Assembly: GCA_017526905.1 (NCBI GenBank)
Contig: JAFXQT010000018.1
Location: forward strand, 1-59,419
DNA: 59,419 nucleotides
Direction of reading: 5' to 3'
Source of the DNA: Bacteroidaceae bacterium
GTDB lineage: Bacteria; Bacteroidota; Bacteroidia; Bacteroidales; Bacteroidaceae
In this document: positions 1,639 to 59,017 of the stretch, in pieces
How positions within the stretch are numbered: position 1 is the first letter of the stretch
Layout of the letters: the number at the start of each line of letters is the position of its first letter
Notes under the pieces: model-generated
The model's database searches: none
What the model saw: only the letters and a program-made list of their open reading frames with translations
What the model was told of the DNA's origin: nothing
Translations under genes and position numbers: made by a program

Positions 1639-1815
1639 GGTGGGTTCTATAAATTAGCTTTGGAACGCTTTGAGACTATTTGCGAGCAGATTTACTTCCA
1701 AGACCGAAGGGGCGTAGCGGGCTACGTTCCAAGGACTTGGAAGGAAAGATGCCGGAAAGAGGCCAAAACGAACAAAGATAATTCATAGAGAATTTGTTAA
1801 TTAATAGAACACACC
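1639..1815 (+). repeat. 177-bp hairpin element, copy A
   Basis: Starts GGTGGGTTCTATAAATTAG and ends TAATAGAACACACC. The ends form imperfect terminal inverted repeats of about 18 bp. The interior is self-complementary with an apex hairpin CGTAGCGGGCTACG and flanking arms CTTCCAAG / CTTGGAAG. Both flanks carry ATAT, an apparent 4-bp target duplication. Length equals copies C, D and E. No open frame is conserved. It looks like a non-autonomous miniature element. Confidence 0.85.
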
Positions 1816-1910
1816 ATATGTGAATCACGGTTCTTTGATTTATTTTTTTGAATCCGAGACCGACCTTTTTTTTGCATCGAGTACCATTCCCGTGGATATG
1901 GTGCTGAATG

Positions 1911-2159
1911 TTATTTTCTCATCAACTTGATGTACCATTCATCTGCTGGAGAGAGGTTCACATATCTCTTTCCATCTCCACCAAGATCCCATTGGCTTGT
2001 TATTTCCCATTGCCGAATAGGCAAGACGGCAAAATTGCCTGTAAGAATCATGCTATGCTCTTGGCGACGAAACTTACGGTGACTATGCTGTTTCCCTTGC
2101 TTTTGAGATTTGCAGCAACAGAATGTGGTAACGGGTGTCCTTTTCTTGCTTTTTCCCAT
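1911..2159 (-). CDS. Small basic hypothetical protein
   Basis: 82 residues starting MGKSKKRTPVTTFCCC, rich in Lys/Arg/His in the first half and ending with an aromatic segment (NLSPADEWYIKLMRK). It recalls small, basic proteins of unknown function that occur singly in Bacteroidales, but I cannot name a family. The start at 2159 was chosen because a full promoter lies just before it: TACCTTTG at 2176-2169 and TTTG at 2200-2197 with 20-bp spacing. That leaves a leader of only a few bases. A longer start at 2195 would lie inside the promoter and is rejected. Hairpin elements lie on both sides. Confidence 0.6.
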   Translation of the reverse strand: MGKSKKRTPVTTFCCCKSQKQGKQHSHRKFRRQEHSMILTGNFAVLPIRQWEITSQWDLGGDGKRYVNLSPADEWYIKLMRK

Positions 2160-2168
2160 GACTGACTG

Positions 2169-2200
2169 CAAAGGTAAAGACAAAAGCATTCTCAACCAAA
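2169..2200 (-). promoter_or_regulatory. Promoter of the small basic protein
   Basis: On the minus strand TTTG (2200-2197), 20 bp, then TACCTTTG (2176-2169): an exact Bacteroidota -33/-7 arrangement. The ATG follows 9 bp after the -7 box, so the leader is very short. Confidence 0.7.
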
Positions 2201-2248
2201 GAAAAAACCTTAAAAATGATAAAGAGGTTCTGTGATGAGCCGTTTTAA

Positions 2249-2386
2249 GGTGGGTCCTATAAATTAGCTTCAGATGATTTGTCGCTTATTTTCGAGTGGA
2301 TTCGCACTTTCAGCCGAAAAGAAGCACAAAACATCGAAGTTAAGAAAAGGCCTGGAAAGAACAAAAACTAATTTTCAGAACTCACC
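2249..2386 (+). repeat. Hairpin element, divergent 138-bp copy B
   Basis: Begins GGTGGGTCCTATAAATTAG and ends AATTTTCAGAACTCACC. The outer ~20 bp are inverted repeats of each other, but the interior differs from the 177-bp copies and lacks the CGTAGCGGGCTACG apex. Flanks share TAA. It is probably an older or related subfamily member. Confidence 0.7.
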
Positions 2387-2424
2387 TAATTTGACATAGT
2401 TGGTAGATGCTTATTCACACTAAA

Positions 2425-2601
2425 GGTGGGTTCTATAAATTAGCTTTGCATTGCTTTTAGACTATTTTCGAGCAGATTTGCCTTCAAGCCCGCAGAAGCG
2501 TAGCGGGCTACGGTTCAAGGGATTGGAGACAAAGATGCCGGAAAGAGGCAAAAGCAAGCAAAGATAATTCATAGAGAATTTATTAATTAATAGAACACAC
2601 C
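2425..2601 (+). repeat. 177-bp hairpin element, copy C
   Basis: Same ends and apex as copy A, flanked on both sides by TAAA (apparent 4-bp target duplication). It is almost identical to copy D at 12222-12398: one difference was noticed in the whole element. This suggests recent movement or copying. Confidence 0.88.
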
Positions 2602-2617
2602 TAAATCCAATAGAACC

Positions 2618-2652
2618 AAAACTTTTCTTCGAAAAACACTACAGACTACAGG
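2618..2652 (-). repeat. Short repeat R2, copy 2
   Basis: Minus-strand CCTGTAGTCTGTAGTG followed by the T-rich half. It lies six bases after the stop codon of the HU-HIG gene, in the sense of that gene, where a terminator would be expected. Together with copy 3 (5120-5157, opposite orientation) it brackets the HU-HIG/VirE module. Confidence 0.75.
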
Positions 2653-2657
2653 AACCC

Positions 2658-3338
2658 CTAATCCTTCATCAACACATACACCCGATGGCTGCCGCTTCCT
2701 TTTACGGTGATGCCATAGTCGGGGTTCTGCCACGCCTGTTTCAGCTCGCGCTGGGCGGTGGAGTAGGACAGGCCTGTGATGTTGGCATAGTCGCTGACGG
2801 TCATGAAGGGGTGGTCGGCCAGGAACTCGCGAGCCACAATCATGCGGTTCTTCACCTGCGGATACTTGGAGGTCTTGATGCGGACGCCTTCACGGCCATA
2901 TACCCTGCGTAGGGACTGCTTGCTGAAACAAGCCTCCACCTGGCCGAAGAAGTCCTTGTTCTTGCTGAAGTTGATGTGGTCCAGTCTGAGGCTGCGGGCG
3001 TTGGGCTCAGGGTCGGCTGCGTCAGTGTCAGAAGCCGCTCCGCCAGCCTCGTTCCCCGGCTTGGCATCCTGCTCCGCATCGCCCTTCATCCGCACGCCGA
3101 TGCTGAAGACGCCGATGTTGGGCAACTCCACCGAATGGCCCTTGCCCAGCTGTTCGGCCAGCTCCTTGGCCACATCGATGAGCACACCCGTCACCACAGC
3201 CTCGTTGTAGCTGTGCCGATGCGCCACCTCACGGATAAATTGTGTCCCGTCAATCCGGCTCTCATTCTTCAGTCGGTAAACCGTCCGCGTCTGCTCCGGA
3301 TTCAGCATGTCGCGTTGTTCCAGCTTGTAGTATTCCAT
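2658..3338 (-). CDS. HU-family DNA-binding protein fused to a winged helix (HU-HIG type)
   Basis: 226 residues. Residues about 1-125 resemble the Bacteroidota HU-like domain (GTQFIREVAHRHSYNEAVVTG, then GHSVELPNIGVFSIGV). They are interrupted by an acidic, Gly/Ala-rich loop (about 85-115). Residues about 160-226 form a winged helix (MTVSDYANITGLSYSTAQRE, then GSGSHRVYVLMKD). Families of this build bind DNA and often sit beside replication or mobile genes. The divergent neighbour is a VirE-type ATPase, with a long inverted repeat between them. The target is unknown. The start is the only ATG upstream of the HU core with a plausible length. Confidence 0.82.
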   Translation of the reverse strand: MEYYKLEQRDMLNPEQTRTVYRLKNESRIDGTQFIREVAHRHSYNEAVVTGVLIDVAKELAEQLGKGHSVELPNIGVFSIGVRMKGDAEQDAKPGNEAGGAASDTDAADPEPNARSLRLDHINFSKNKDFFGQVEACFSKQSLRRVYGREGVRIKTSKYPQVKNRMIVAREFLADHPFMTVSDYANITGLSYSTAQRELKQAWQNPDYGITVKGSGSHRVYVLMKD

Positions 3339-3481
3339 CGTCGTTTCTCTTTTCTGTTTCTACTCTCGTCTGTTTCTTGGTTTGTTTTTCCTCTCGCTTG
3401 TAAAAATACGACATACTTTGCACCCCCACCAAATTGCCGCTCTTAAATTATCTTAAAAGATGCGGGTGATGTGTGTATATT

Positions 3482-3530
3482 ACTATGTGATTTCTGAAAA
3501 GAAACGCGTGCTTTCTATATATCACATAGT
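3482..3530. repeat. 10-bp inverted repeat in the HU-HIG / VirE divergent region
   Basis: ACTATGTGAT (3482-3491) and ATCACATAGT (3521-3530) are perfect inverted repeats 29 bp apart. Between them lie GAAA/TTTC arms and an ACGCGT palindrome. The position between two DNA-metabolism genes suggests an operator or replication-protein site; the sequence alone does not decide. Confidence 0.6.
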
Positions 3531-3706
3531 GCTTTTTACGTAAGTGCAAGCTGTTGACGTGAATTTTCCTCGTTCCAAGGCACTTGTCACCTGGCTTCAC
3601 AGGACTAATCAAAACGGTGCTCCGGCATGAGGGGGAAGGTGCGGTTGACGATTCATAAAGCTCTTGTTTTCAGCGTGAAACGAGCAAAAAACAATGCAAA
3701 AATTAT

Positions 3707-3737
3707 TTGATAACAGCTTGCGGAATCATTATCTTTG
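3707..3737 (+). promoter_or_regulatory. Promoter of the VirE-type gene
   Basis: TTG at 3707-3709, 20-bp gap, then TATCTTTG at 3730-3737: full match to the Bacteroidota consensus, 46 bp before the ATG at 3784. Confidence 0.75.
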
Positions 3738-3783
3738 CATCCGATTAGTCAACCTATTGTTTAACTACTAAATCTAACTGCTT

Positions 3784-5043
3784 ATGCAAAATGAAAATTT
3801 TTACCCCCAAGTCCTGACGCCCGTTCAGGCAACCGAATCGGCCATTGTTGAAGATGTCTCTGTTTCTGACTACGAAACAATCGAATCGGTCACTGTGATT
3901 AACCCCCTCCACGAGTTCCTGCTGAACGAGTACGAGCTGCGTCGCAACATCATCAGCGGCAAGATTGAGTTCCGCGAACACGGAGCCGACGCTTTCCGCG
4001 TGCTCACTAAGGACGAGCTGAACACCATCCTGTTGTCTGCCGAGGTCGCCCTGCCCAATCAGAAGCGGCTGCGCGACCGCCTTTGCACCCTTATCTATTC
4101 GCGCGCCACGCCCGACTTCGACCCTGCCGCCCATTGGCTCGCCTCGCTGCCCCAGTGGGATGGGAAGAACCATGTGGATGCGCTGCTCAACCGCATTCCC
4201 GCCCTGCCTGCCGACCAGCGCTACTGGCTGCATGTGTGGCTGCGGTCGGCTGTGGCCCACTGGCTGCAGAAGGATCATCTGCACGGCAACGAGCTGGTGC
4301 CCACCCTCATCGGCGAACAGGGCTGCGGAAAGAGCACCTTCTGCCAGCTCCTGCTGCCCGAACACCTGCGGCAGTACTATCTCGACCACGTCAACCTGGC
4401 CAACAAGTTCGACAAGGAAATGGCGCTGACCAACAACCTGCTGGTCAACATCGACGAGCTGGATCAGGTGCGGCGTTCGCAGCAGGCCGAGTTGAAGCAG
4501 CTGCTCTCCAAGAGCAGTGTCAACGGCCGTACCATCTATGGCAAGGTGCAGCAGGATCGTCGGCGTTATGCCTCGTTCGTGGCCACCACCAACAACCGTC
4601 ACCCCCTGCATGATCCCACGGGTTCCCGTCGGTTCCTCTGCATCGAGATTCCCGCCGGCCGTCTCATCGACAACGCTCAGGCCATCGATTACGACCAGCT
4701 CTATGCCCAGCTCCTGTCGGAACTGGACCGCGGCGAGCGCTATTGGTTCACGGAGGAAGAGACGCGGGCTATCCAGCGCCACAACATGCCCTACCAATCG
4801 ACGCTCGACATGGAGCGTATCGTCATGGCGTGCTTCCGCAAGCCCCTGCCCGACGAGCCTTGCCGGCCCGTCAAGATGACTGCCATCCTCGATGTGGTCA
4901 GCAGCGAGTTCCCCTTCATCCGTCCCCAGCACAGCACGAAGGTGCAGATTGGTCTGGCCCTCGCCGCCCAGGGATTCAAGAGCAAGCGCGACGAATTCGG
5001 AATGACCTACTTCGCCGTGCCCCTGCGGGCGGTGCCCCAGTAA
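3784..5043 (+). CDS. VirE/VapE-family P-loop ATPase
   Basis: 419 residues of the virulence-associated protein E type, a helicase-like ATPase family common in phages and integrated elements of Bacteroidota. Walker A is GEQGCGKST (about residues 177-185) and Walker B is LLVNIDEL (219-226). A sensor-like segment FVATTNNRHPL with GSRRFL (about 262-280) follows. The C-terminal ~90 residues are a small helical region. No primase domain is fused at the N-terminus, so this is a short family member. The gene has its own strong promoter and ends before a strong hairpin. A role in replication or restart of a former mobile element is inferred. Confidence 0.85.
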   Translation: MQNENFYPQVLTPVQATESAIVEDVSVSDYETIESVTVINPLHEFLLNEYELRRNIISGKIEFREHGADAFRVLTKDELNTILLSAEVALPNQKRLRDRLCTLIYSRATPDFDPAAHWLASLPQWDGKNHVDALLNRIPALPADQRYWLHVWLRSAVAHWLQKDHLHGNELVPTLIGEQGCGKSTFCQLLLPEHLRQYYLDHVNLANKFDKEMALTNNLLVNIDELDQVRRSQQAELKQLLSKSSVNGRTIYGKVQQDRRRYASFVATTNNRHPLHDPTGSRRFLCIEIPAGRLIDNAQAIDYDQLYAQLLSELDRGERYWFTEEETRAIQRHNMPYQSTLDMERIVMACFRKPLPDEPCRPVKMTAILDVVSSEFPFIRPQHSTKVQIGLALAAQGFKSKRDEFGMTYFAVPLRAVPQ

Positions 5044-5070
5044 TGACCTCCGCGTCCGTCCACACCAGAG

Positions 5071-5103
5071 AATCGCCCCGTCCTGCGAAAGGACGGGGCG
5101 ATT
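5071..5103 (+). terminator. Strong hairpin after the VirE-type gene
   Basis: AATCGCCCCGTCCT (5071-5084) pairs perfectly with AGGACGGGGCGATT (5090-5103) around a 5-base loop. There is no immediate T tract, but the R2 repeat with a long T run follows at 5120. Confidence 0.75.
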
Positions 5104-5119
5104 GCGTTAGCAGTTAATT

Positions 5120-5157
5120 CCTGTAGTCTGTAGTGTTTTTCGGAAAAAATTTTTTTT
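5120..5157 (+). repeat. Short repeat R2, copy 3
   Basis: CCTGTAGTCTGTAGTG followed by a T run, CGG, an A run and a long T tract. It lies downstream of the VirE hairpin in the sense of that gene and opposite in orientation to copy 2. Confidence 0.75.
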
Positions 5158-5194
5158 CTGAAGATTGATTACCACAGCAATTTGCACCAATCGG

Positions 5195-5488
5195 CTATGG
5201 TTCTGCATTGATCTCATTCTGTGCATAGGTGATGGCTTCTTTTTTTATCTCATCCTCATCATTTGCTACAACGTCAAGAACTTTGTCGGCGAGCCAGATG
5301 GTCAGCAGTTCTTTCTCGTCTATCTCGAAGAGTTTGGCCATAATGGGAATCTGGCTGCGCTTTGCCTTACGCTCTCCACGTTCTATTTTACTATACATTG
5401 GGGTGTCAATCTCTAACGCTGCTGACAACTGTCGCTGTAGCAGACCATGCTCCTCTCTGAGCACTTTGATTTTCTTTCCCAATATCAT
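5195..5488 (-). CDS. XRE-family helix-turn-helix regulator
   Basis: 97 residues. The Cro/C1-type helix-turn-helix covers about residues 6-60 (KKIKVLREEHGLLQRQLSAA, then TPMYSKIERGERKAKR). A short acidic tail follows that could mediate dimerisation. It is the last gene of the minus-strand run that carries mcrBC, and such small XRE proteins commonly control restriction genes. The 220 bp before its start are packed with eight TAGTCG/CGACTA hexamers, which may be its own operators. Its regulatory role over the locus is inferred. Confidence 0.85.
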   Translation of the reverse strand: MILGKKIKVLREEHGLLQRQLSAALEIDTPMYSKIERGERKAKRSQIPIMAKLFEIDEKELLTIWLADKVLDVVANDEDEIKKEAITYAQNEINAEP

Positions 5489-5517
5489 ATCCGTTTCTCT
5501 TCTCTTATCTTACACTT

Positions 5518-5735
5518 CGACTAAACAAAGTAATAACTTCGACGAAAACTTAATTCTTGCAATTTCCTACTTCCCCTGTTTTTACGGGCTTCTCATGATG
5601 ATGCATCAAAGAAGTTCGACTAAACATCGACTAAACTATCGGAAATGACTATTTTTACGACTAGAAGCTTCCGATTAGCCATTTTCTAGTCGTTATTAGT
5701 CGTGTACTAGTCGTTGTTTTGGTCCTTACTAGTCG
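5518..5735. promoter_or_regulatory. Array of eight TAGTCG/CGACTA hexamers
   Basis: CGACTA occurs at 5518, 5617, 5628 and 5658, and its complement TAGTCG at 5687, 5697, 5708 and 5730. The first four point one way and the last four the other. Neighbouring spacings of 11, 30, 29, 10, 11 and 22 bp are close to whole helical turns. An inverted pair ATCGGAA/TTCCGAT (5638-5644, 5669-5675) lies at the centre. The array lies upstream of the XRE gene and runs into the end of the chimeric gene. It looks like a multi-site operator. Confidence 0.65.
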
Positions 5736-6216
5736 TCGCATACCAAGTCCTATCCTTTTGTATGACTGAACCTTCATTTCTCATTTCCGCCAAGATATTA
5801 CCAACCAATCTTTGATTTTGTTCCTTGGTGTTTCTTGCAGGAAGGGTCTCTCTGAGATATTCAATAACGAACTCTCTTCGGGTTCCATCCTCTCCAGCAT
5901 TCTGAATGAACTGTAAGGCCATCTGCTTTATCTTGTCGCGTTCAAGTCCTTTCACTTTGGTGTATTCAGGCAGTTGTTTCGTTTGCCTTGCAATACTTAG
6001 GGATATGGTCAAATCTGGGTATTCGCCCTCTACCAAACCGCGCTCCAATAGGTTCTTGGCATCTCGCTCTACAATGTCCCTTCCAAGTTCCCTATAGAAT
6101 CTGAGCACTTCCGTATTCACCTTAACTGCCGCCTTTACCTGGCTCTGTCTATAATTTGCAACGCGGTTTGTCATCCATTGTACGTATTCCTTATCTAAAA
6201 TACCAATATCTGTCAT
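5707..6216 (-). pseudogene. Chimeric remnant: DUF1016 N-terminus joined to C-terminus of an AlbA_2-type ATP-binding protein
   Basis: 169 residues in one frame. Residues about 10-50 (MTNRVANYRQSQVKAAVKVN, FYRELGRDIVE) match the start of DUF1016/YhcG proteins, which normally continue for another 280 residues with a nuclease domain. From about residue 53 the sequence instead matches the C-terminal winged-helix tail of AlbA_2-type proteins (NLLERGLVEG, YTKVKGLERDKIKQMAL, GNILAEMRNEGSVIQK). A deletion fusing two unrelated genes near nucleotide 6060 is the simplest explanation. The frame is open and could yield a DNA-binding protein, so it may have been retained. It lies 17 bp after mcrC. Confidence 0.6.
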
Positions 6217-6233
6217 TGTTGTTCAAATGTTTC

Positions 6234-7553
6234 TCATAATGTGTCGAATTCTATGTGATGTTTAAGGATTTCTTCCTCTTCTCTCATCTTCAGGACAAAC
6301 TCTGCAAATGTTTCGCAGGTATGCTCTGTATGCAATCCGTAGATACCGATGCTCCCTCCATACCCTGCCAGCTCTTTCCTGGATTCGGCTTGCTCATCTT
6401 TTCTTAATGGAACCACAAAGCCGCCCCTGGATACCCTCAGCCGGTACATATATGCTATTACCTGATGCAGGTCGTCGCCACTTACATTTTGTATTTCCGT
6501 ATTGCCATATCCCTTGTACTTTGCATCGAGTACAAAATCGTTGCGATAGAAATCCGGATAACGAGGACACGACCCGTCAGTGAACAGATTGATACGCCCT
6601 TTGAACACCTTGTTTTGCGGATGAGTGAATCCACATTTTGCTAAAACGGTGTTCAGATATTCTTCCCAGAGCCAGGCACCGTCGAAAAGGATGCCGTAGA
6701 TTTCATTGTCGTCGCGTCCGTACTTTAATTCCTCGTGACGGAGAATCTGTAGGCAGATCCGTTGCAGGTTCCGATATTCAGAGTAATAGGGATGACTGAG
6801 TGGACGCAGGTTCTGGCTGATAACGCAGCGGAGGTCATTCCGGTTGTAGGTGGGAGTAGCCTCTTTTATCTGTGTGACAGCATTCTTTGTAGCCTCGTCG
6901 CTGTGCAGAACACCTCCTCTATATGGATGGCGGGCGACATATTCTATGGTGTGACGAATCAACTGACTGACGTGGTTGTCGTACACATATTCACGGGTGG
7001 AATAGGCCACGCTGCCTGCAAAGGGGATGTTCTGGCGGATATGCCTGCTGACATCTATCCTGCCCCTGACATTAGCATCGTTGTATCTTCGCGACTGATA
7101 TTCTTTGTACAGCCCCTGCCGTAAGGCTCGTTTGAGAAACGGAGGAAAGAGGTATATCAAGAAGTCGAAGACGCTATCCTTGTCAGTGTTGTACTTCATG
7201 TCAAACAGATTAATGGCGAAAACCTTCTGCAGCATGTAGTGCAAAAAATAGTCACAGCTATCCTCCTGTGCGAAGCGGGACATGATTCTGACCTTGGTGT
7301 TGTTAAAGCCGATGAAGCCCATGATGTTGCCAGTGGAAATGGTGCTCTCATCCACTTGCAGGATATAGCTGTCGCCAATCTTGTCGCCGTTCTCGTTCAA
7401 GCTCTGAGGAAAAACGAGAAGGTTGGGATTGTCGTCAGAACATAATTTCGCAATGGAGCGCCCAGCAATCATTTTCAGATTGTTGAGATGCGCCATTTCT
7501 TGTTCTGACAACAGTCGCTGGCTATTATCCTTGATTGCTATTGGCTGCAACAT
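6234..7553 (-). CDS. mcrC: McrC, nuclease subunit of a type IV restriction system
   Basis: 439 residues. McrC supplies the nuclease and the activator of the McrB motor in modification-dependent restriction. The N-terminal half (about 1-200) has the McrC beta-barrel region. The PD-(D/E)XK site is at about residues 328-346, seen as RYPDFYRNDFVLDAKYKGY with the D-x-K triad (LDAK) intact. The start overlaps the end of mcrB by 29 bp, typical of translational coupling of the two subunits. Length is in the usual range. The specificity cannot be read from this subunit. Confidence 0.9.
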   Translation of the reverse strand: MLQPIAIKDNSQRLLSEQEMAHLNNLKMIAGRSIAKLCSDDNPNLLVFPQSLNENGDKIGDSYILQVDESTISTGNIMGFIGFNNTKVRIMSRFAQEDSCDYFLHYMLQKVFAINLFDMKYNTDKDSVFDFLIYLFPPFLKRALRQGLYKEYQSRRYNDANVRGRIDVSRHIRQNIPFAGSVAYSTREYVYDNHVSQLIRHTIEYVARHPYRGGVLHSDEATKNAVTQIKEATPTYNRNDLRCVISQNLRPLSHPYYSEYRNLQRICLQILRHEELKYGRDDNEIYGILFDGAWLWEEYLNTVLAKCGFTHPQNKVFKGRINLFTDGSCPRYPDFYRNDFVLDAKYKGYGNTEIQNVSGDDLHQVIAYMYRLRVSRGGFVVPLRKDEQAESRKELAGYGGSIGIYGLHTEHTCETFAEFVLKMREEEEILKHHIEFDTL

Positions 7554-10230: not shown

Positions 10231-10245
10231 ATATAGTTAATTCTT

Positions 10246-10920
10246 TCAGATGATTATTTCCTGTGCCACATGATCGCTTTCATCTTTATTCCATCTGCAT
10301 AGCTTATAAGAATGCACAGGGATGTTCGCAAATGTATAATCAAGAAAAAAAGGATAGTTTTCTTTGAATTGATGGTAATAAGTCGCCATCGTTTCTCTTC
10401 CCAGAGTTTCATGCGTCTTCTGGTGATAAATGCTGACAAAGCCCATATCCTCCAAGAAACCCAAAATGGTCTCTATGGAATATCTCTTTGTTGCCTCTTG
10501 CTGACCTTTGAAACAATTAAAGTCGCCAGAGATGATAGTTGGCTGTTGCTTTAAGTACGGAACGTAATCTTCCAACGCTTCTAACAGTATTTGGGGATAG
10601 CTCATGTCTTTGTTTGAATCCGTTTTTGTGGGCCACGTGGCAATTATCAGAATGTCACCAAGATACAAAGGCAATAAATACTTATGTTTAGGTTTAAACA
10701 ATTCTGGCAATTTGCTGCTCAACGTAGACTTCACAACGATGCCAAGGCCTTTCCAGTCGCAATCCCCCATCCAATATGATTGATAGTCGTGAGGAATCTG
10801 TAGCTGCGAAGGATTGGCTAATTCGGGCAAGATATAAATATCTGCCTCCTTAGCCATAATCTTCTCCAGCTTATCTTGCGACGAATGGTGTATGTTGTAT
10901 GATAGTAGCTTCATTTTCAT
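10246..10920 (-). CDS. Endonuclease/exonuclease/phosphatase (EEP) family protein in the McrBC operon
   Basis: 224 residues with the EEP fold markers in order: LSYNIHH at the N-terminus, ADIYILPELA (metal-binding Glu, about residue 33), SGDFNC (about 136-141) and ESDHVAQEI at the end. Members cleave phosphodiester or phosphomonoester bonds in a metal-dependent way. It lies 15 bp before mcrB and 8 bp after dinD on the same strand, so it is probably co-transcribed with the restriction genes. An accessory nuclease or resolvase of cleaved DNA is a reasonable guess. The substrate cannot be read from sequence. I know of no standard McrBC system in which this gene is a fixed part. Confidence 0.82.
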   Translation of the reverse strand: MKMKLLSYNIHHSSQDKLEKIMAKEADIYILPELANPSQLQIPHDYQSYWMGDCDWKGLGIVVKSTLSSKLPELFKPKHKYLLPLYLGDILIIATWPTKTDSNKDMSYPQILLEALEDYVPYLKQQPTIISGDFNCFKGQQEATKRYSIETILGFLEDMGFVSIYHQKTHETLGRETMATYYHQFKENYPFFLDYTFANIPVHSYKLCRWNKDESDHVAQEIII

Positions 10921-10928
10921 ACTATGTG

Positions 10929-11768: not shown

Positions 11769-11814
11769 ACAGATTTATAAATAGAAGTAAAATTCAGAAC
11801 CCTTTATCCGGTTT

Positions 11815-11861
11815 GTCAAGTTTGACCACAAAGATATAATAATAATTGCAGACCATCGCAA
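11815..11861 (-). promoter_or_regulatory. Promoter and possible operator of the dinD-mcrBC operon
   Basis: Minus-strand TATCTTTG at 11836-11829 and TTG at 11861-11859 (22-bp spacing). Just downstream of the -7 box lies GTCAAGTTTGAC (11815-11826), an inverted repeat that could bind a dimeric repressor, perhaps the XRE protein of the same operon. Confidence 0.55.
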
Positions 11862-11975: not shown

Positions 11976-12012
11976 CCTGTAGTCTGTAGTGTTTTTCGGA
12001 AAAAACTTTTTT
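11976..12012 (+). repeat. Short repeat R2, copy 4
   Basis: CCTGTAGTCTGTAGTG followed by a T run, CGG, an A run and a T tract. It is the closest match to copy 3. It is not directly behind any present gene, which may mean the gene it served has been lost. Confidence 0.75.
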
Positions 12013-12221: not shown

Positions 12222-12398
12222 GGTGGGTTCTATAAATTAGCTTTGCATTGCTTTTAGACTATTTCCGAGCAGATTTGCCTTCAAGCCCGCAGAAGCGTAG
12301 CGGGCTACGGTTCAAGGGATTGGAGACAAAGATGCCGGAAAGAGGCAAAAGCAAGCAAAGATAATTCATAGAGAATTTATTAATTAATAGAACACACC
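12222..12398 (+). repeat. 177-bp hairpin element, copy D
   Basis: Nearly identical to copy C (2425-2601), including the apex CGTAGCGGGCTACG. The flanks are AT-rich. If the A at 12221 is taken as part of the insertion, both sides read ATTA; otherwise no exact duplication is seen. Confidence 0.88.
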
Positions 12399-12838: not shown

Positions 12839-12854
12839 GTTGTGCCCTGTGTCG

Positions 12855-29240: not shown

Positions 29241-29264
29241 GGTGGGTTCTATAAATTAGCTTTG
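29241..29264 (+). repeat. Solo left end of the hairpin element (copy G)
   Basis: The first 24 bp match the left end of the 177-bp elements (GGTGGGTTCTATAAATTAGC...). After that the sequence diverges and no right end is seen within 200 bp. It lies one base after the helicase stop codon. Confidence 0.8.
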
Positions 29265-41834: not shown

Positions 41835-41907
41835 GGTGGGCTCTAAAAATCAGCTTCAGCAAAGAAAAGGCCCGCTGACAACCGGAAACTAATGATTAGA
41901 ACACACC
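41835..41907 (+). repeat. 73-bp mini hairpin element (copy F) in the aroB leader
   Basis: Begins GGTGGGCTCTAAAAATCAG and ends TAATGATTAGAACACACC, matching both ends of the 177-bp family with only about 35 bp between. It ends 7 bp before the aroB ATG, so it would overlap the ribosome binding region. No clear target duplication. Confidence 0.75.
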
Positions 41908-46650: not shown

Positions 46651-46653
46651 TTG

Positions 46654-48004: not shown

Positions 48005-48014
48005 CACATCCGAT

Positions 48015-48911: not shown

Positions 48912-48953
48912 CACGAAGCAACGAAGTCGAACAGAACTCATCTCCATGCACTC

Positions 48954-49775: not shown

Positions 49776-49794
49776 CATAAAAGGACTCGAATAT

Positions 49795-51111: not shown

Positions 51112-51197
51112 GTGGCATGCTTTGCAGCTATGGCCGCACCTCTTCCTAACTGGCCATTCCCAGTCTCCAATCTTCAATCTCCCAATATTCCCCCAGT

Positions 51198-53447
51198 ATG
51201 GACGATGACACCAGAGCCAAACAGGATGAGGAGATGGTGGGCGCAGCCTATCAGAAACTCATCGACACGTATTTAGCCTCGCCCCACCGCAAGAAAGTGG
51301 AGCTTATCAACCGCGCCTTCAACTTTGCCAAGCAAGCGCACAAGGGCGTACGCCGCCTCAGCGGCGAGCCCTATATCATGCACCCCTTGGCGGTGGCGCA
51401 GATAGCGTGTGGCGAGATCGGGCTTGGCTCCACCTCCATCTGTGCGGCGCTGCTGCACGATGTGGTGGAGGACACGGACTATACGGTGGAGGATCTGTCG
51501 AACGTGTTCGGCCCGAAGATTGCGCAGATCGTGGACGGCCTGACCAAGATATCAGGCGGCATCTTCGGCGAAAAGGCATCGGCACAGGCCGAGTCGTTCA
51601 AGAAGTTGCTGCTCACCATGAGCGATGACATCCGCGTCATCCTCATCAAGATCAGCGACCGCCTGCACAACATGCGCACACTGGGCTCGCAGCCTGCCCA
51701 CAAACAGTACAAGATAGCCGGCGAGACGCTCTACATCTATGCCCCGCTGGCACACCGCCTGGGGCTGAACATCATCAAGGAAGAGCTGGAGGACCTTAGC
51801 TTCAAGTACGAGCACCCTGAGCAGCATCAGCAAATTGTGGATCAGCTGAAAGCCATCGAACCACACCTGAACGAGGTGTTCCGCGAGTTCATCAAGCCCA
51901 TCCGCACAGGGCTGGACAAGATGGGCGTCACCTACGACATCAAGGCGCGCATCAAACGTCCCTACAGTGTGTGGATGAAGATGCAAAACAAGCACGTGGC
52001 CTTCGAGGAGATCTATGATATCCTTGCGGTCCGCGTGGTGTTCGACCCCAAGGGACCGGACACGGAAATCAACGACTGCCTCCAGATCTATGGCATCTGC
52101 ACCAGCTTCTACGACCAGCACCCGAACCGCTTCCGCGACTGGCTGCATCACCCGAAGGCCAATGGCTACCAGGCGCTTCACACCACGCTGATGAGCAAGC
52201 AGGGCCGATGGATAGAACTGCAGATACGAAGCCGGCGCATGGACGATATGGCCGAGCGCGGTTTTGCTGCCCACTGGAAATACAAGGAGGGCGAGAAGGA
52301 TGCCTCGGCCAGCGAGACCGAACTGGACAAGTGGCTGGCCACCATCAAAGAGATCCTGGACGACCCACAGCCGTCGGCCATGGATTTCCTGGACACTATC
52401 AAGCTGAACCTGTATGCCTCGGAGATATTCGTGGTCACGCCGAAGGGCGAGTTCCGCACCATGCCGGCCGGCTGTACGGCTCTCGACTTCGCCTTCTCCA
52501 TCCACACCATGCTCGGCACGCACTGTATGGGTGCCAAGGTAAACCACCAGCTTGTACCTATCAGCCATAAGCTGGAAAGCGGCGACCAGGTGGAAATCAT
52601 CACCGGCAACGACATCCGTGTGCAGGAGTCGTGGCTGCCTTTCGCCACTACGGGCAAGGCCAAGAACAAAATCATGGCCATCCTGCGCCGTCAGCGCCGT
52701 GAGAAAGCCAAGAAGGGCGAGGAGATGGTGACCGAGTGGCTCAGCGCACATGAGGTGCCCGCCAACAGCGTGCTGGTGGACCGTATCTGCAACCTCTACC
52801 GAAAGCCTACACGCGAGGACCTGTTCGTGGCGATAGGCGACGGCTCCATCGAACTCAACGACGACCTCCTCGAGGCGGTGCAGCGCAAACAGCCCAAGGC
52901 GAAGAAACAGGGCAACGGCTGGAAACGCTTCGTCCCCTTCCTCAAGTCCAAGCCTGTCGAGACCCAGGAGGAAGGCCCGGGCAGCGTGGTCATTGATAAG
53001 AAGAAGCCTTTGGCACTGACCGAGGACAATATCAGCCGCTTTATCATGTGCCCGCATTGCCGCCCCATTCCCGGCGACGATGTCCTGGGCTATCTCGACG
53101 AGCAGAACCGTCTCATCATCCATAAGCGTCAGTGTGCCGATGCCAACCGCCTAAAGACGGCCCATGGCAACCAGATTGTAGCCGTGTATTGGGACACACA
53201 CAAGCGAATCACCTTCCCCGCCACCATACATATCGAAGGCATCGACCGCGTCGGCGTGTTGCGCAGCCTCACCGACGTGCTCACACAGCAGCTCAACGTC
53301 AACGTGCGCCACATCACCATCGACACCAACGATGGCATCTTCCAGGGCGACATCGTGCTCGAAGTGCACGACACCCAGGATTTGACTACAATCATCAAGA
53401 ATTTGAAGAAGATAGAGGAACTGGAGGACGTGACAAGAATCTCCTGA
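51198..53447 (+). CDS. RelA/SpoT bifunctional (p)ppGpp synthetase/hydrolase
   Basis: 749 residues with the full Rel order. HD hydrolase (about 40-200; ALLHDVVEDT retains the His-Asp pair). Synthetase (about 245-370; IYDILAVRVVF, GYQALHTTLM, ELQIRSRRMDDMAERG). TGS (about 410-475; VTPKGEFRTMPAGCTALDFA). Then a helical and Cys-containing region (MCPHCRPIPGDD) and a C-terminal ACT domain. Both activities are probably present. It makes and degrades the stringent alarmone. Last gene of the parA-to-rel run. Confidence 0.95.
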   Translation: MDDDTRAKQDEEMVGAAYQKLIDTYLASPHRKKVELINRAFNFAKQAHKGVRRLSGEPYIMHPLAVAQIACGEIGLGSTSICAALLHDVVEDTDYTVEDLSNVFGPKIAQIVDGLTKISGGIFGEKASAQAESFKKLLLTMSDDIRVILIKISDRLHNMRTLGSQPAHKQYKIAGETLYIYAPLAHRLGLNIIKEELEDLSFKYEHPEQHQQIVDQLKAIEPHLNEVFREFIKPIRTGLDKMGVTYDIKARIKRPYSVWMKMQNKHVAFEEIYDILAVRVVFDPKGPDTEINDCLQIYGICTSFYDQHPNRFRDWLHHPKANGYQALHTTLMSKQGRWIELQIRSRRMDDMAERGFAAHWKYKEGEKDASASETELDKWLATIKEILDDPQPSAMDFLDTIKLNLYASEIFVVTPKGEFRTMPAGCTALDFAFSIHTMLGTHCMGAKVNHQLVPISHKLESGDQVEIITGNDIRVQESWLPFATTGKAKNKIMAILRRQRREKAKKGEEMVTEWLSAHEVPANSVLVDRICNLYRKPTREDLFVAIGDGSIELNDDLLEAVQRKQPKAKKQGNGWKRFVPFLKSKPVETQEEGPGSVVIDKKKPLALTEDNISRFIMCPHCRPIPGDDVLGYLDEQNRLIIHKRQCADANRLKTAHGNQIVAVYWDTHKRITFPATIHIEGIDRVGVLRSLTDVLTQQLNVNVRHITIDTNDGIFQGDIVLEVHDTQDLTTIIKNLKKIEELEDVTRIS

Positions 53448-53455
53448 TTCCTGCC

Positions 53456-53803
53456 TTACACCAGGTTGTCCAGCTCATTCTTGATAGCCATGAGCTGTTC
53501 GCGCACATGTATCATGCGGTTCATGAGGTCGCTGCTGTTCTTGGCGCCATCATGGTTCTTCCGGATCAGTTCGCGTGCGGCGCTCAACTTCATGTTGCGC
53601 ACCTTGATGAGGTCATAGACCAGACGTATCTCGTCAATATCCTCCTGGGTATAAATGCGGATGTTCCCGTTGTTCTTGCGCGGATGGATGGTAGGGAACT
53701 CCTTCTCCCAGTAGCGCAGGGTGGTAGGCGGTACGTTGAATATCTCGCCCACCTCTGCGATGGAGTAGAACCTCTTCAGTTCCTTGTTGGGATTCAGTGG
53801 CAT
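53456..53803 (-). CDS. MerR-family transcriptional regulator
   Basis: 115 residues from ATG 53803. N-terminal winged helix (about 8-75): FYSIAEVGEIFNVPPTTLRY, NNGNIRIYTQEDIDEI. A C-terminal coil for dimerisation follows. No effector domain, as in the short MerR-like proteins commonly found next to lytic transglycosylase/rel genes in Bacteroidales. The upstream frame to 53860 is rejected because it runs into the promoter. Confidence 0.9.
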   Translation of the reverse strand: MPLNPNKELKRFYSIAEVGEIFNVPPTTLRYWEKEFPTIHPRKNNGNIRIYTQEDIDEIRLVYDLIKVRNMKLSAARELIRKNHDGAKNSSDLMNRMIHVREQLMAIKNELDNLV

Positions 53804-53848
53804 GCGTCGCAGTAGATTAGAAGTGATACCTTTTGTGCTTTTACATCG

Positions 53849-53879
53849 CAAAAGTAGCAATTATTTCCCAACTGGCAAA
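53849..53879 (-). promoter_or_regulatory. Promoter of the MerR-family gene
   Basis: Minus-strand TTTG (53879-53876), 19 bp, TACTTTTG (53856-53849). Confidence 0.7.
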
Positions 53880-54011
53880 AAGAAAGGGCACGAATCTCCC
53901 GCCAACCTGCGCTTTTCTGCCTTTTCCGTGTCGTTCCACCTCGTTTATACATGCTCAAAAGGGCATCGGAGGCGCCTCGTTTCTTGAATTTCAGAAGAAT
54001 ATTGCGTCGCA

Positions 54012-54045
54012 TTTGCTTCCGAATGCAATTTAATTCGTACCTTTG
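54012..54045 (+). promoter_or_regulatory. Promoter of alaS
   Basis: TTTG at 54012-54015, 22 bp, TACCTTTG at 54038-54045, 40 bp before the first ATG. Spacing slightly long. Confidence 0.6.
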
Positions 54046-54085
54046 CGGCCAAATCCGCAAACCGTCAAACCGAAACACACTATAA

Positions 54086-56755
54086 ATGATGACAGCTAAC
54101 GAAATCCGCGACTCGTTCAAGAAGTTCTTCGAGTCCAAGGGGCACACCATCGTGCCCTCTGCACCCATGGTCATCAAAGATGACCCCACACTGATGTTCA
54201 CCAATGCCGGCATGAACCAGTGGAAAGATATTATTCTGGGCACACGCGACCCGGAGCCACGCCGCCGTGCCGATTCGCAGAAGTGCCTCCGTGTCAGCGG
54301 CAAGCACAACGACTTGGAGGAGGTGGGACACGACACCTACCACCACACCATGTTCGAGATGCTGGGCAACTGGTCCTTCGGCGATTACTTCAAGGAAGGG
54401 GCCATCGACATGGCTTGGGAGTATCTGGTCGATGTGCTCGGCCTCGACCCCAAGGACCTCTACGTAACCGTGTTTGAGGGGTCGCCCGAAGAGAATATCC
54501 CCCGTGACGACGAGGCTGCCGGCTACTGGCGCAAGCATGTGCCCGAGGACCACATCCTCCTGGGCAACAAGCACGACAATTTCTGGGAGATGGGCGACAC
54601 CGGCCCCTGCGGCCCCTGCTCCGAGATCCACTTGGACAGCCGCACGCCCGAGGAGAAGGCCAAGGTGCCCGGCCGCGAACTGGTCAATAAGGACGACCCG
54701 CAGGTCATCGAGATCTGGAACAACGTGTTCATGCAGTTCAACCGCAAGGCCGACGGCTCGCTGGAGCCCCTGGCCATGAATGTCATCGACACCGGCATGG
54801 GCTTCGAGCGCCTGGTGCGCGCGCTGCAAGGCAAACACTCCAACTATGACACCGACGTGTTCCAGCCCATCATCCGCCGCATCGAGGAACTTTCGGGCAA
54901 GCAATACGGCAGCACCGAGGAGGTCGATGTGGCCATGCGCGTCATTGCCGACCATATCCGTGCCGTGGCCTTCAGCATTGCCGACGGCCAGCTGCCCGGC
55001 AACGCCAAGGCAGGCTACGTCATCCGCCGCATCCTGCGACGTGCCGTCCGCTATGCCTACACCTTCCTCGGCCAGAAGCAGGCCTTCATGTATCGGCTGC
55101 TGCCCACCCTCGTGTCCGAGATGGGCCAGGCCTATCCCGAGCTGGTGGCCCAGCAGGAGCTCATCTCCAAGGTGATGAAGGAGGAGGAGGACTCCTTCCT
55201 CCGCACCCTCGAAACGGGCATCCGCTTGCTGGACAAGGTCATGGCCGAGACGAAGGCTGCCGGCAAGAGCGCCATCGACGGCACCCAGGCCTTCACCCTC
55301 TTCGACACCTACGGCTTCCCCCTCGACCTCACACAGCTCATCTGCCGCGAGAACGGCCTGAGTGTCGATGAGGCCGGCTTCGACGTGGAGATGCAGAAGC
55401 AGAAGGAGCGTGCCCGCAACGCCGCCGCCGTCGAGACCGACGACTGGCAGGAGGTGGTGAATGACGAATTACGAATGAAGAATGACGAATCGGGAAGTCA
55501 GGACACAGACATTCATTCGTCATCCTTCGTGGGCTGGGATTATACCGAGTACGAGTGCCATATCCTCCGCTACCGCCGCGTCACCCAGAAGAAGCAGACC
55601 TTCTACCAGATTGTCCTGGACAAGACTCCGTTCTATGCCGAGATGGGCGGTCAGGTAGGCGACCAGGGCGTGCTCGTTAGCGAGAACGAAACCATCGATA
55701 TCATCGACACCAAGAGCGAGAACGGTCTCACCGTTCACATCGCCAAGAAGCTGCCCCAGCACCCCGAAGCTTCCTTCATGGCCTGCGTCGATACCGACAA
55801 GCGCCACGCTTCCGAGGCCAACCACAGTGCCACCCACCTGTTGGATCAGGCGCTGCGCGAGGTGCTCGGCACGCATGTGGAGCAGAAGGGCTCGCTCGTT
55901 TCGCCCGAAGGTCTGCGCTTCGACTTCAGCCACTTCCAGAAGGTAACGGCCGAGGAACTGCGCCAGGTGGAGCGCATCGTCAACCAGCGCATCCGTGAGA
56001 ACATCCCCTTGCAGGACCACCGCGACGTGCCCATCGAGCAGGCCAAGGAACTCGGCGCCATCGCCCTCTTCGGCGAGAAGTACGGCGACCGCGTCCGTGT
56101 GGTACAGTTCGGCAAGAGTGTCGAGTTCTGTGGCGGTTGCCACGTCAAGGCCACCGGCCAGATCGGCATGTTCAAGATTGTGGCCGAGAGCAGCGTGGCT
56201 GCCGGCATCCGCCGCATCGAGGCCGTCACCGGGCAGAAGGTGGAGGAGATGCTCTATCAGCTGGAGGACACCATCGGCGCCATCCGCAACTTCTTCAACG
56301 GTCAGCCCGACGTAACGGCCAACATCGAGAAGATGATCATGGAGAACGCCGACATGAAGCGCCAGGTGGAGCAGTTCGTACACGAGAAGGGCCAGCAGGC
56401 CAAACAGATGCTCATCGAGAAGGCTGTCGTGCAGGACGGCGTCACCATCATCAAGCATTTCCTGCCCCTGCCTGCCGATGCCGTCAAGGACATCGCCTTC
56501 CAGCTGCGTGCCGAGGTGCCCAACGCACTTGTGGCCTTGGGCAGCATGAACCAGGACAAGCCCCTGCTCACCTGCGCCGCTTCCGACAGCCTTGTCCAGG
56601 AGCATGGCGTCAATGTGGGCAAGATCATCCGCGAGGCCGCCAAGCTCATTCAGGGCGGCGGTGGCGGACAGCCCCACTTTGCCACGGCCGGCGGCCGCAA
56701 TGCCGACGGCCTCAGTGCCGCCCTCGACAAGTTCGTCGAGCTGGCTTTGGCCTGA
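54086..56755 (+). CDS. alaS: Alanine--tRNA ligase
   Basis: 889 residues. Charges tRNA-Ala. Class II core at the N-terminus ([25 protein letters not shown]), the editing domain with [11 protein letters not shown] and CGGCH (zinc ligands), and a C-Ala domain ending in [14 protein letters not shown]. The start is ATG 54086 or the next codon 54089. Residues about 459-480 ([20 protein letters not shown]) come from an inserted AT-rich repeat with an inverted ATGACGAAT/ATTCGTCAT pair and are absent from usual AlaRS. The frame is kept, so the enzyme should work. Confidence 0.97.
55460..55523. repeat. AT-rich repeat inserted in frame in alaS
   Basis: AATGACGAAT at 55460-55469 and again at 55481-55490 (21-bp period), with the complement ATTCGTCAT at 55515-55523. 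On the minus strand it reads as the CATTCGTAATTCGTCATT-type repeat found between genes in many Bacteroidota. Here it sits inside a coding sequence. Confidence 0.8.
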
Positions 56756-56830
56756 GCCCGGTTCCCATATCCGTGGCCGCCCGCTGTGACGTGCCTCGGC
56801 ATGATTTCGCTGCCCTATGCAGATAAAAGA

Positions 56831-56871
56831 GCGTGAATTGCTTGGCAATTCACGCTTTCTTTGTATATTTG
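56831..56871 (+). promoter_or_regulatory. Terminator hairpin overlapping a promoter
   Basis: GCGTGAATTG (56831-56840) pairs with CAATTCACGC (56846-56855), followed by TTTCTTT: an intrinsic terminator for alaS. The loop contains TTG (56842-56844), which with TATATTTG at 56864-56871 (19-bp gap) forms a promoter for the next gene. The two signals share the same bases. Confidence 0.7.
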
Positions 56872-56895
56872 CCACGCAAACCACCTCGTTTACCT

Positions 56896-58809
56896 ATGAA
56901 AACGCCCTTCGCCCATTGCCTTCACCCCCTCGCACTGCTGTGTGTGCTGTTCTTAGCCACGGCCACGGCTGCCGGCGGTTCGGCGCGCTCGCAGGCGCAG
57001 TGCCCGGTGGTTCCGTTGCAGGTGGAGCGTCTGCCCGACCTGAATATGCCTCGTTCCGGCCATGCCTTGATCTGGGCCAATGGCGAGGCGGTCGTGGTGG
57101 GCGGCCACACGTCGGGCTTTATCCCCACGGCTACTGCCGAGTACTACAGCGACGGACAGTGGCACCTGTTACCCACCGTCTACAAGCACGACGACGGCCT
57201 CACGCTGCTGCTGCGCTCCGGCCAGGTGCTCGTGGCCGGCGGGCACGAGAAGAACCTGGGCATCGGTCAGACCTTCGAGGTGGAACGCTACGACCCCGTG
57301 GCGCACCGGTTCGAGGGCTTTGGCTGTCTGGACCGCAAGCGCACACTTTTCAGCGCTGTCGAGCTGGACAGCGGGCGGGTGCTCGTCTCGGGCAACTGGT
57401 ACGAGCGCGATGAAATCGAGCTTTTTGACGGGCGCAAGTTCTTTGCCCATGTCAAACCCGTGTCAACCCCGCGCGCAGCCCCCTTCATGTTCCGCATGTC
57501 GGACGGCGATGCCCTTATCCTGGCGGGGCAGGACACCTGCGGGCACATCCTGGACACCATCGTGGTGGATCGGTGGCGTGGCGAGCCTTTCAGCGTGCCG
57601 CTGCTGCGCGAGTGGATTCCGCTGCCATGCGAGGGGCACCAGCGCGATGGCTACGCCAGTTTCGTGGGCGATGAGGCCAAGGACGAGTACGCCTATCTGA
57701 TGCCGGTGGTTCGTCGCGACGGGTACAAGGCGGGCAATCCTTGGTGCCGCCCACAGCTGGGCATCGTGCGTGTGCAGGACACCCGTTTCGAGCTTCTGCC
57801 CACGGCCGCGCCCATTCCCCGGTGCTCGCCAGCGGGGCATGCCATCCATTGGTTCACGCATGTCATAGCCGACCGCCAGCGCGGCCGCGGCTATGTGTTG
57901 GGGATCGATTCCCACAGCTCGGTTTGTATCTTGGCTTTCGATTACACGCGCGCGCCCATGCCCGTGTGCCTTTATTATATGGAGCGGAACGATTGGCTGG
58001 GGTTTTCCGTTCCCGTGTTGATGCCCGACGGCAACCTGCTCATGGCCGGCGGCATCTGGAACGATAACTTCGCGCCCTTTGCGTCGGCCGCCATCCTCCG
58101 TGTCAGCCCTGATGCCGCCTCCTCTCTTCAGCGCGCCTCCGGCTGGGGCTGGTGGCTGGCTGCCTTGGCCGGTGTCCTGGCCCTTGTGGGCCTCATGGCC
58201 CGCTTGCGCCAGCACAAACTAAGGCAGGCCGCCGCTGCGGCACAGGCCCCACAGGCCCCCACTGGCAGCGGCGCCAATGGGCCCGCCCCCGGCGGTGCTT
58301 CTTGCCCCGCCGAGATTGGCGAGGCAGTGATGCCCGGTGGCGGCCCCAACCAGGCCGGCGTTGTTTTGGCCCAGCAGCCCGGCGGTGCAGCAGTCCAGCC
58401 CCTTAGCGGCGGGGCCGCCCTCTCTCCTGCCGCGCCATCAGTAGGAGGGGCCATTGTGCCCGAGGGTTCCCCTTCGGGCTCCTCCGACTCGCTCATGCCC
58501 CGCCTCCGCCAGCTGATGGAAGAGGAGCGGCTGTTCCTGAACAGCGAGCTGAAGGTGTCCGATGTGGCCACTCGCCTGGGCACGAACGTGCGCTATGTGT
58601 CGGGCTGCCTGAAGGCCGAAGGCATCAACTTCAAATCCTTCGTAAACACCTACCGCGTGGCCTATGCCCAGCAGTTGCTGCAGCGCCAGCCCGACATCAA
58701 GATGGCGGCCGTGGCGGCCGAATCGGGCTTCTCGGGCACCAGTTCCTTCTTCCGCACGTTCAAGACCGTGACTGGTGTCACGCCCAGCGAATGGCGCGAG
58801 GGTAAGTAA
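56896..58809 (+). CDS. Membrane-spanning regulator: Kelch-like sensor fused to AraC-type helix-turn-helix
   Basis: 637 residues from ATG 56896. Signal-anchor or signal peptide (LALLCVLFLATATAAGG). Residues about 35-405 form a propeller of Kelch or galactose-oxidase-like repeats (GHALIWANGEAVVVGGHTSG, RSGQVLVAGGHEKN, MPDGNLLMAGGIWNDN). One membrane helix at about 416-438 (GWGWWLAALAGVLALVGLMA). An ~90-residue Ala/Gly/Pro-rich linker (about 440-525) follows. The C-terminal AraC helix-turn-helix spans about 530-637 (LKVSDVATRLGTNVRYVSGC, GFSGTSSFFRTFKTVTGVTP). This is a one-component sensor: ligand outside, DNA binding inside. No histidine kinase parts are present. The adjacent secreted BNR gene is a likely target. 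Start chosen from the promoter position. Confidence 0.85.
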   Translation: MKTPFAHCLHPLALLCVLFLATATAAGGSARSQAQCPVVPLQVERLPDLNMPRSGHALIWANGEAVVVGGHTSGFIPTATAEYYSDGQWHLLPTVYKHDDGLTLLLRSGQVLVAGGHEKNLGIGQTFEVERYDPVAHRFEGFGCLDRKRTLFSAVELDSGRVLVSGNWYERDEIELFDGRKFFAHVKPVSTPRAAPFMFRMSDGDALILAGQDTCGHILDTIVVDRWRGEPFSVPLLREWIPLPCEGHQRDGYASFVGDEAKDEYAYLMPVVRRDGYKAGNPWCRPQLGIVRVQDTRFELLPTAAPIPRCSPAGHAIHWFTHVIADRQRGRGYVLGIDSHSSVCILAFDYTRAPMPVCLYYMERNDWLGFSVPVLMPDGNLLMAGGIWNDNFAPFASAAILRVSPDAASSLQRASGWGWWLAALAGVLALVGLMARLRQHKLRQAAAAAQAPQAPTGSGANGPAPGGASCPAEIGEAVMPGGGPNQAGVVLAQQPGGAAVQPLSGGAALSPAAPSVGGAIVPEGSPSGSSDSLMPRLRQLMEEERLFLNSELKVSDVATRLGTNVRYVSGCLKAEGINFKSFVNTYRVAYAQQLLQRQPDIKMAAVAAESGFSGTSSFFRTFKTVTGVTPSEWREGK

Positions 58810-58840
58810 GGGGGCGCGTGCCCGTTGGCCTGTCCTTTTT

Positions 58841-59017
58841 GGTGGGTTCTATAAATTAGCTTTGAATTGCTCTTAGGCTATTTCCGAACAGATTTTGTTT
58901 CAAGACCGCCGGGGCGTAGCGGGCTACGTCCCAAGGACTTGGAGCAAAAGATGCCGGAAAGAGGCAAGAGCAAACAAAGATAATTCATAGAGAATTTATT
59001 AATTGATAGAACACACC
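58841..59017 (+). repeat. 177-bp hairpin element, copy E
   Basis: Same ends and apex as copies A, C and D. Flanked by TTTT on each side (apparent 4-bp target duplication, though in a T run on the left). Internal sequence is closest to copy A in the apex arms. Confidence 0.87.

Follow-up and report, generated by a model that had tools for sequence, protein, structure and literature searches.

Miniature transposable elements with different ends appear to share one conserved hairpin module in Bacteroidales

What is the self-complementary repeat that recurs along a short stretch of a Bacteroidaceae genome, and does its hairpin have a history of its own? The stretch studied here (the window: 59,419 nucleotides, positions 1 to 59,419 of contig JAFXQT010000018.1, assembly GCA_017526905.1) carries four full 177-nt elements, all on the + strand, at 1639..1815, 2425..2601, 12222..12398, and 58841..59017, exactly where a first-pass annotation made from the letters alone had placed them, and each of the four folds, as it had proposed, into one long imperfect hairpin. 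It is close to certain that these repeats are miniature inverted-repeat transposable elements (MITEs), that is, non-autonomous transposable elements. The earlier reader did not see that the internal hairpin also occurs in elements of other end types, and the best reading of the data is that a single conserved and strand-polar hairpin module, here called the core, is common to MITEs of several transposon types.

The hairpin core in elements with different ends

Two models were used to follow the core. R1 is a covariance model of the whole 177-nt element with 69 pairs; because such a model could reward any hairpin, we also made R2, a sequence-only model built from 12 cores of GGTG-type elements, including the window cores of the elements at 2425 and 58841. 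In the window, R2 places the core on the + strand at 1672..1762 (E 1.2e-20), 2457..2548 (E 4.4e-23), 12254..12345 (E 3.6e-22), and 58873..58964 (E 4.4e-23), the second and fourth being part of its own input. R1 matched 15 of 393 Bacteroidales genomes at E<=1e-4, the window's own included, and many of these matches sit in elements with different ends. The end classes include GAGCCTG/GAAGCTGTTTAAATTTTAT (families f3 and f29), AGTAACTGGTCAAAATTAT (family f26), ...GTCATTAG (families f4 and f79), and GAGCTTGTTTAATAATAAATG in another f26 genus, where the element is 322 nt long and includes another core running in the opposite sense; families f81, f19, and f42 again show GGTG-like ends. Duplications of 3 bp, T[AT]A, flank 10 of 12 elements in the GAGCCTG/GAAGCTGTTTAAATTTTAT class, and 3-bp duplications also flank 2 of 2 in the GAGCTTGTTTAATAATAAATG class, both counts omitting elements with non-fitting ends (among them L286, L312-L315, and L317). 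Since elements of several end classes contain the module, and one of those classes makes 3-bp duplications, it appears to be moved by more than one transposase.

The homology of these cores was seen with R2 as well. It matched the core in 35 of 36 loci, which had been picked via R1 except for two viral contigs (L328 and L332) picked by the apex pattern, with a best E per locus of 1e-15 to 2e-5, and the sole miss, L294, is itself GGTG-like. In 68 control loci fetched for their transposases (235,591 bases), R2 found nothing at E<=1, and R1 gave one match, at 0.44, in the insertion sequence (IS) locus L219 described below. R2 thus meets the objection of a bias toward pairing as far as homology is concerned, though not for each pair. 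Each of the 11 non-GGTG cores shares 58-70% identity with its closest counterpart in another class. In a tree built from 31 cores, which with 99 columns and modest support is a hint only, the 3-bp GAGCC/GAAGC class falls within one GGTG group, with the TCATTAG class next to a second one.

The core is 92-93 nt long in 52 of 73 non-overlapping matches. Its fold has an outer stem with a single bulge, a 3-bp GCA/UGC step, and a GA/GA internal loop (written GCA-GA-UU / AA-GA-UGC), followed inward by a freely varying yet paired stem and a 6-bp apex, such as GCGTAGCGGGCTACG. In 31 divergent cores, the motifs GAGCAGATT and AAGATGCC were identified in 27 and 28, respectively, with <=2 mismatches each, and the apex GCG[AG]GC is exact in 25. 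Aligned without regard to structure, these 31 cores, which carry six end labels, pair in 91.8% of cells (shuffled, 72.0). Double changes occur in 18 of 20 base pairs, and covariation scores 0.598, compared with 0.215 +- 0.017 after shuffling and 0.095-0.189 after sliding. The whole elements behave similarly: when folded singly, nearly all of those listed between 150 and 215 nt give one long imperfect hairpin, L138 and L039 being branched, and in 21 copies 96.0% of cells pair, double changes keep pairing in 26 of 69 pairs (shuffled, 7.8 +- 1.7; slid, <=9), and the covariation score is 0.178 vs 0.087 +- 0.006. Covariation across copies, which the first-pass annotation had glimpsed in a few arm changes, is therefore present in elements and cores alike. 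Taken together, the data give good support to the core being a single homologous module, constrained in its pairing, that elements of several end types carry.

The hairpin is also strand-polar. With RNA parameters, 29 of 31 cores fold better on the strand reading AGCGRGCT; with DNA parameters the figure is 30 of 31, and removing the outer stem and the GA loop still leaves 28 of 31. These counts are not independent since the 31 cores share ancestry. G-U pairs outnumber A-C pairs 52 to 25 in 22 whole elements. For the variable arms of 22 cores the ratio is 22 to 15, too even to separate RNA from DNA; the folded strand may be RNA or single-stranded DNA.

Copy number, target duplications, and an empty site

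Mobility of the window family is indicated by copy number, duplications, and an empty site. In the window's own genome (G000; 2,797,867 bases in 104 contigs, 79% complete), we identified 42 matches, a count that rests on 40 of 53 first-look candidates scored: 10 full 177-nt copies, 7 of 208-210 nt spanning the whole query, and 25 partial ones, many of which end at contig ends. The 18-bp terminal inverted repeats occur there, with <=2 mismatches, 38 times forward and 30 times in reverse, vs 0 and 1 for a reversed-pattern control, and the 42 matches together with this excess of the terminal 18-mer over its control exclude a chance origin. The expectation of a genome-wide miniature element was thus borne out, and the window, with 4 of the 10 full copies, is denser than the remaining genome. 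Its copies at 1639 and 58841 have 86-88% identity to the one at 2425, and the copy at 12222 is 99% identical to 2425-2601.

The 4-bp target duplications proposed for three of the window copies are exact direct repeats, ATAT at 1635-1638 and 1816-1819, TAAA at 2421-2424 and 2602-2605, and TTTT at 58837-58840 and 59018-59021; the element at 12222 has none (TTAA/ATTA). Across a set of 87 end-to-end elements of 26-330 nt, both flanks were readable in 84, a number that contains decayed and mispaired ends, and 46 of these 84 have an exact 4-bp duplication, most commonly TTAA, TAAA, or TTTA, and none a longer one. Re-pairing the flanks in 2000 shuffles gave a mean of 9.2 and a maximum of 19 such duplications. 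Eight of the 10 full 177-nt copies in G000 carry one.

A clean empty site was identified in a sister species. At one intergenic position, G391 reads ...CTCTCCTTATAGTAAC... (...GAGACGCTCTCCTTATAGTAACTTTTATTTTTCAT...) with a single TATA, where contig C76 of G000 reads TATA-177 nt-TATA between the same two flanking genes, which are 93.7% and 92.5% identical over the compared pieces. The end motif was found in the syntenic intergenic space at this one site in none of the 7 related genomes that have both flanking genes, G391 among them. The outcomes named beforehand as telling against mobility, no further copies in the genome or fixed positions shared with distant species, were therefore not what we found. 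Four joined flank pairs were queried, giving a clean site at one junction and no match across the other three, and 46 joined-flank queries against the collected loci returned no empty site. A nested insertion in genome G007 was considered as an empty site and set aside, as its left flank fails to continue the outer element. With a length of 177-210 nt, inside the limit of about 600 bp for such elements, many copies, no transposase gene, terminal inverted repeats, target duplications, and an empty site, the family has the features of MITEs.

In a genus sample, matches were identified in 12 of 61 genomes, the window's own included. A scan of GTDB genomes with one end form gave at least 92 stretches; among the matches listed, most have Bacteroidales-type labels (rumen and gut metagenome-assembled genomes [MAGs] plus a single isolate), two carry the label Clostridia, and another two read only "uncultured bacterium." The cultured Prevotellamassilia timonensis An873 likewise has a related element, whose core match is weak (L084), and an end is present in L135. 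In 88 of these stretches, R2 gave 37 matches at E<=0.001. A distant blastn search with the 2425 copy found none in plasmids and phages. Among viral contigs, 5 had the ends and 20 the apex pattern, and R1 found the core in 3 of these 25 (L332:12940-13118, L336:11425-11603, and L328:8568-8748, all putative viral contigs). L332 and L336 have the same sequence at the core, and the ends look, by eye, like a further type, TAAGTAA...AAATTAG.

Several other arrangements were seen. G007 has an abundant 192-nt sister family with the ends GGTGGGTTCTATAAATTC (L057, L058, L065, L068, and L074), and its end matches of all forms number 89 in 2.3 Mb. Minimal elements of 27-48 nt, with two ends back to back and matching 4-bp flanks, occur at L044:900-929, L118:2964-2990, L152:4005-4050, and L110:5854-5901. 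At L295:1500-1852 in G623, about 350 nt hold several copies or pieces of the core, arranged in tandem and nested and lacking clear ends, and this compound hairpin is very stable.

Shorter relatives of the element are also present on the + strand of the window. The one at 2249..2386 is, as the first-pass annotation had it, a true relative, an internally deleted derivative of 138 nt with both ends (R1 E 1.4e-9) and no exact duplication. The second short derivative named there, at 41835..41907, is weaker, with the degenerate ends GGTGGGCTCTAAAAATCA / GGTGTGTTCTAATCATTA and no R1 match listed at E<=1. The solo left end at 29241..29264 agrees in 24 of 24 positions and lies directly past the stop codon of a helicase-like gene. 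A separate short repeat around AAAACTTTTnTTCGAAAAAnACTACAGACTACAGG occurs in both orientations at 623-658, 2618-2653, 5120-5156, and 11976-12012.

IS5-family transposases as candidate drivers

We searched for transposases that could move the window's class of elements. DDE transposases (PF01609) were found in 56 of 139 genomes of the genus search. L219 is an IS with the ends GGGAAGTTCTAAAAATTA and the duplication TTAT. Its transposase matches NCBIfam NF033581 (transpos_IS5_4, IS5 family) at 4.5e-82, and at E<=1e-40 relatives of it were found in 13 of 393 Bacteroidales genomes. The transposases of L241-L245 are 50-54% identical to that of L219, and their ends are of the GGTG/GGGG..TTCTA type, with up to 16 of 18 positions equal to the MITE left end. 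The MITE end GGTGGGTTCTATAAATTA agrees best with ends of the NF033581 clade at 16/18, in the form GGTGGGTTCTAAAAATT[GC] among L241-L245, and left-end agreement is 13-16/18 across L219, L241, L242, L244, L245, and L260. Other members of the clade (L246-L249, L252, L254, and L258) have a different, GGGCACCTCT-like end type. Duplications of 4 bp flank L219 (TTAT), L241 (TTAA), and L242 (AATA) as well as clade members with other ends, namely L249 (TTAA), L254 (TTTA), and L258 (TAAA); none was seen in L244, L248, and L252.

These ISs resemble the MITEs in having TTCTA.AAATT or a close form at the same end offset (L219, L241, L242, L244, L245, and L260) and AT-rich 4-bp duplications. They differ in being about 1.3-1.4 kb long with a transposase gene, and in L219 and L241-L252 the core was not found by R2 at E<=1, R1 giving only the L219 match mentioned above. 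A transposase with the very same terminal inverted repeats, as the first-pass annotation had suggested looking for, did not turn up, no IS5_4 copy with exact GGTGKGTTCTATWAATTA ends being found among the IS ends read; what did turn up is an IS5-family clade with similar ends. Three loci bring the clade and the MITEs together: L260, an IS with the ends GGCAAGTTCTATAAATTA / GGGAGGTTCTATAATTTC at a contig start of an Alistipes-labelled MAG that also carries MITE ends; L261, the start of a transposase gene at a contig end in the same host as the 177-nt element L106; and L262, a remnant, shortened by deletion, that keeps both ends and 54 aa. The open reading frames (ORFs) beside unpaired ends (67 of 87, and 10 singly) included no transposase among the families shown, although for the 67-ORF scan the families shown were only the 25 most frequent, out of 106 in Pfam and 526 in NCBIfam, so that a single transposase could be hidden.

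It is likely that IS5-type enzymes drive the GGTG class, and for the window's class such a driver is our best inference. Most likely, an IS5 transposase of the NF033581 clade would move the MITEs in trans, binding the 18-bp ends GGTGNGTTCTATNAATTA and inserting the element at AT-rich 4-bp sites, which would then be duplicated. Two other candidates were rejected. The IS982 remnant at L167:1495-2004 (contig C78 of G000), the only PF01609 match in that genome, has different ends, and the ends of the IS1182 copies do not match either.

We consider it very improbable that IS1182, IS982, or some other family present in these genomes moves the elements. The IS1182 copies seen in the family carry GGTGTGTC ends, which agree over the first 7 bases only, and the left end of a MITE in G048 (about 70 nt) directly adjoins a fragment of an IS982-family transposase (L233:2028-2575), a junction seen in a single truncated copy; the left-end agreement of the IS5_4 elements stands against both. 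Least credible of the alternatives is that a RAYT transposase (Y1 family) spreads the elements as REP-like palindromes, an idea to which the GTAG beside the palindrome at the apex could point. The elements have exact target duplications and terminal inverted repeats, and we know of no Y1 enzymes that yield either.

What the hairpin may do

We hold with good confidence that the elements are MITEs, most likely IS5-driven, that carry a conserved module of about 93 nt apparently moved by more than one transposase. Several observations weigh against this explanation. No exact 4-bp duplication flanks 38 of the 84 end pairs, and in the AGTAAC class TA stands on both sides in 5 of 5 elements, which may be a 2-bp duplication or part of the ends. 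The loci of the other classes, and part of the set labelled A5, were gathered with a covariance model that favours pairing, and the copies are related, so that the shuffle controls overstate their independence. The IS and MITE ends differ variably in the first five bases. No relative of the L219 transposase was found in G000, as far as it is complete, at E<=1e-40, nor in G002, G007, and G048 at E<=1e-15. The search of 53 genomes (49 reached via end-bearing GTDB loci, plus G002, G007, G048, and G416, the last being the source of L219 and outside the 52 end-bearing genomes) gave a transposase match in 3 of the 52, two of them only fragments, and 15 further genomes gave 1 fragment. The incompleteness of the MAGs may be the reason for such scarce matches.

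Two alternatives concern the hairpin itself. These could be ordinary IS5-type MITEs in which the hairpin is a by-product of a palindromic origin (foldback or end-to-end deletion), the arms being kept alike by gene conversion and not by selection on folding. Gene conversion should remove conserved mismatches, however, and 262 of the transversion type remain in 22 representatives; moreover, the length of the core is nearly constant, and its internal loops and apex stay at fixed places despite the changing stem sequence. These points make a mere by-product unlikely, even though bacterial MITEs often form hairpins, folding with DNA parameters has the same strand bias as RNA folding, and several core-less derivatives of 27-48 nt still have 4-bp duplications, which indicates that the core is not needed at the ends. 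Less easily dismissed, though still doubtful, is the view that the core is a regulatory RNA structure (a small RNA or a 3' end structure) that tames insertions, so that transcripts fold and insertion at gene ends is tolerated. The genomic context, counted with mechanical ORF calls and not curated genes, agrees with it in part: among 53 elements with room on both sides, 52 lie outside ORF calls and 1 inside, and the 49 flanked by an ORF on each side divide into 16 with convergent, 28 with tandem, and 5 with divergent neighbours. The better folding of the + strand in 29 of 31 divergent cores points the same way. Yet orientable elements between tandem genes show no orientation preference (11 same, 11 opposite), the small G-U excess in the variable arms gives little sign of RNA, and an ORF would span 5 of the 49 sites with the element left out, so that some insertions may hit genes. 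No Rfam family was matched: the window gave only a tRNA, and in five element-bearing loci scanned at E<=0.1 the one match was to suhB, below threshold and away from the element. The scarcity between divergent genes, at promoter positions, is compatible with tolerance by selection and is not a test of it.

Returning to MITEs with a shared module, a hairpin common to several kinds of mobile element suggests that the hairpin itself does something. The module may have been exchanged between element types, and we infer selection on the folded strand, whether RNA or single-stranded DNA. Most likely, the core would act as a structural signal in one of these forms that helps its carrier persist. A bolder version, which we put forward tentatively and at somewhat less than even confidence, is that the hairpin of about 93 nt is the selected unit, that across Bacteroidales it has passed among MITEs whose transposases are of two types at a minimum and probably of more, and that it benefits its carrier in replication, transposition, or host tolerance.

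Several known systems offer comparison. ERIC/IRU, NEMIS/Correia, and RUP elements are, by their general description, likewise short, intergenic, and hairpin-forming with transposon-like ends. Each of them is known with one end type and one duplication length, whereas the core of the window family is carried both by elements with duplications of 4 bp and by others with 3 bp. The nearest described relatives found are the Porphyromonas gingivalis MITEs MITE239, MITE700, MITEPgRS/464, and BrickBuilt, also of Bacteroidales, whose ends match the IS5-family elements ISPg1, ISPg3, ISPg4, and ISPg9 (PMC4596501). The MITE239 end ACGTGAGTTCGATATAAAGGAA agrees with the left end of the window family at 11/18 in the best register. 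The P. gingivalis MITEs differ from the window family in their end sequences and in the tandem repeats of BrickBuilt and 464, the duplications of BrickBuilt being irregular; the parts of that account available to us, compared by description and not by a core-model search, do not mention a shared hairpin core (PMC4596501). GTAG-tagged REP palindromes, as far as the available description goes, share a palindrome with GTAG (PMC3733652), but the window elements are much longer and have target duplications and terminal repeats. The letters of the end sequence were not found in the open-access literature, a search that covered neither the core letters nor ISfinder. The family is thus a further MITE family, and what looks new is a conserved hairpin payload across transposon types.

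The interiors of MITEs are usually treated as filler between ends recognised by a transposase. In these elements it is the ends that vary by class, as does the duplication length in at least one case, and the interior stays homologous, its fold kept by paired mutations. If this reading is true, the payload rather than the ends would be the lasting unit, and functional structure in bacterial MITEs would become testable, using a set of defined motifs, a model to search with, and one cultured host or more.

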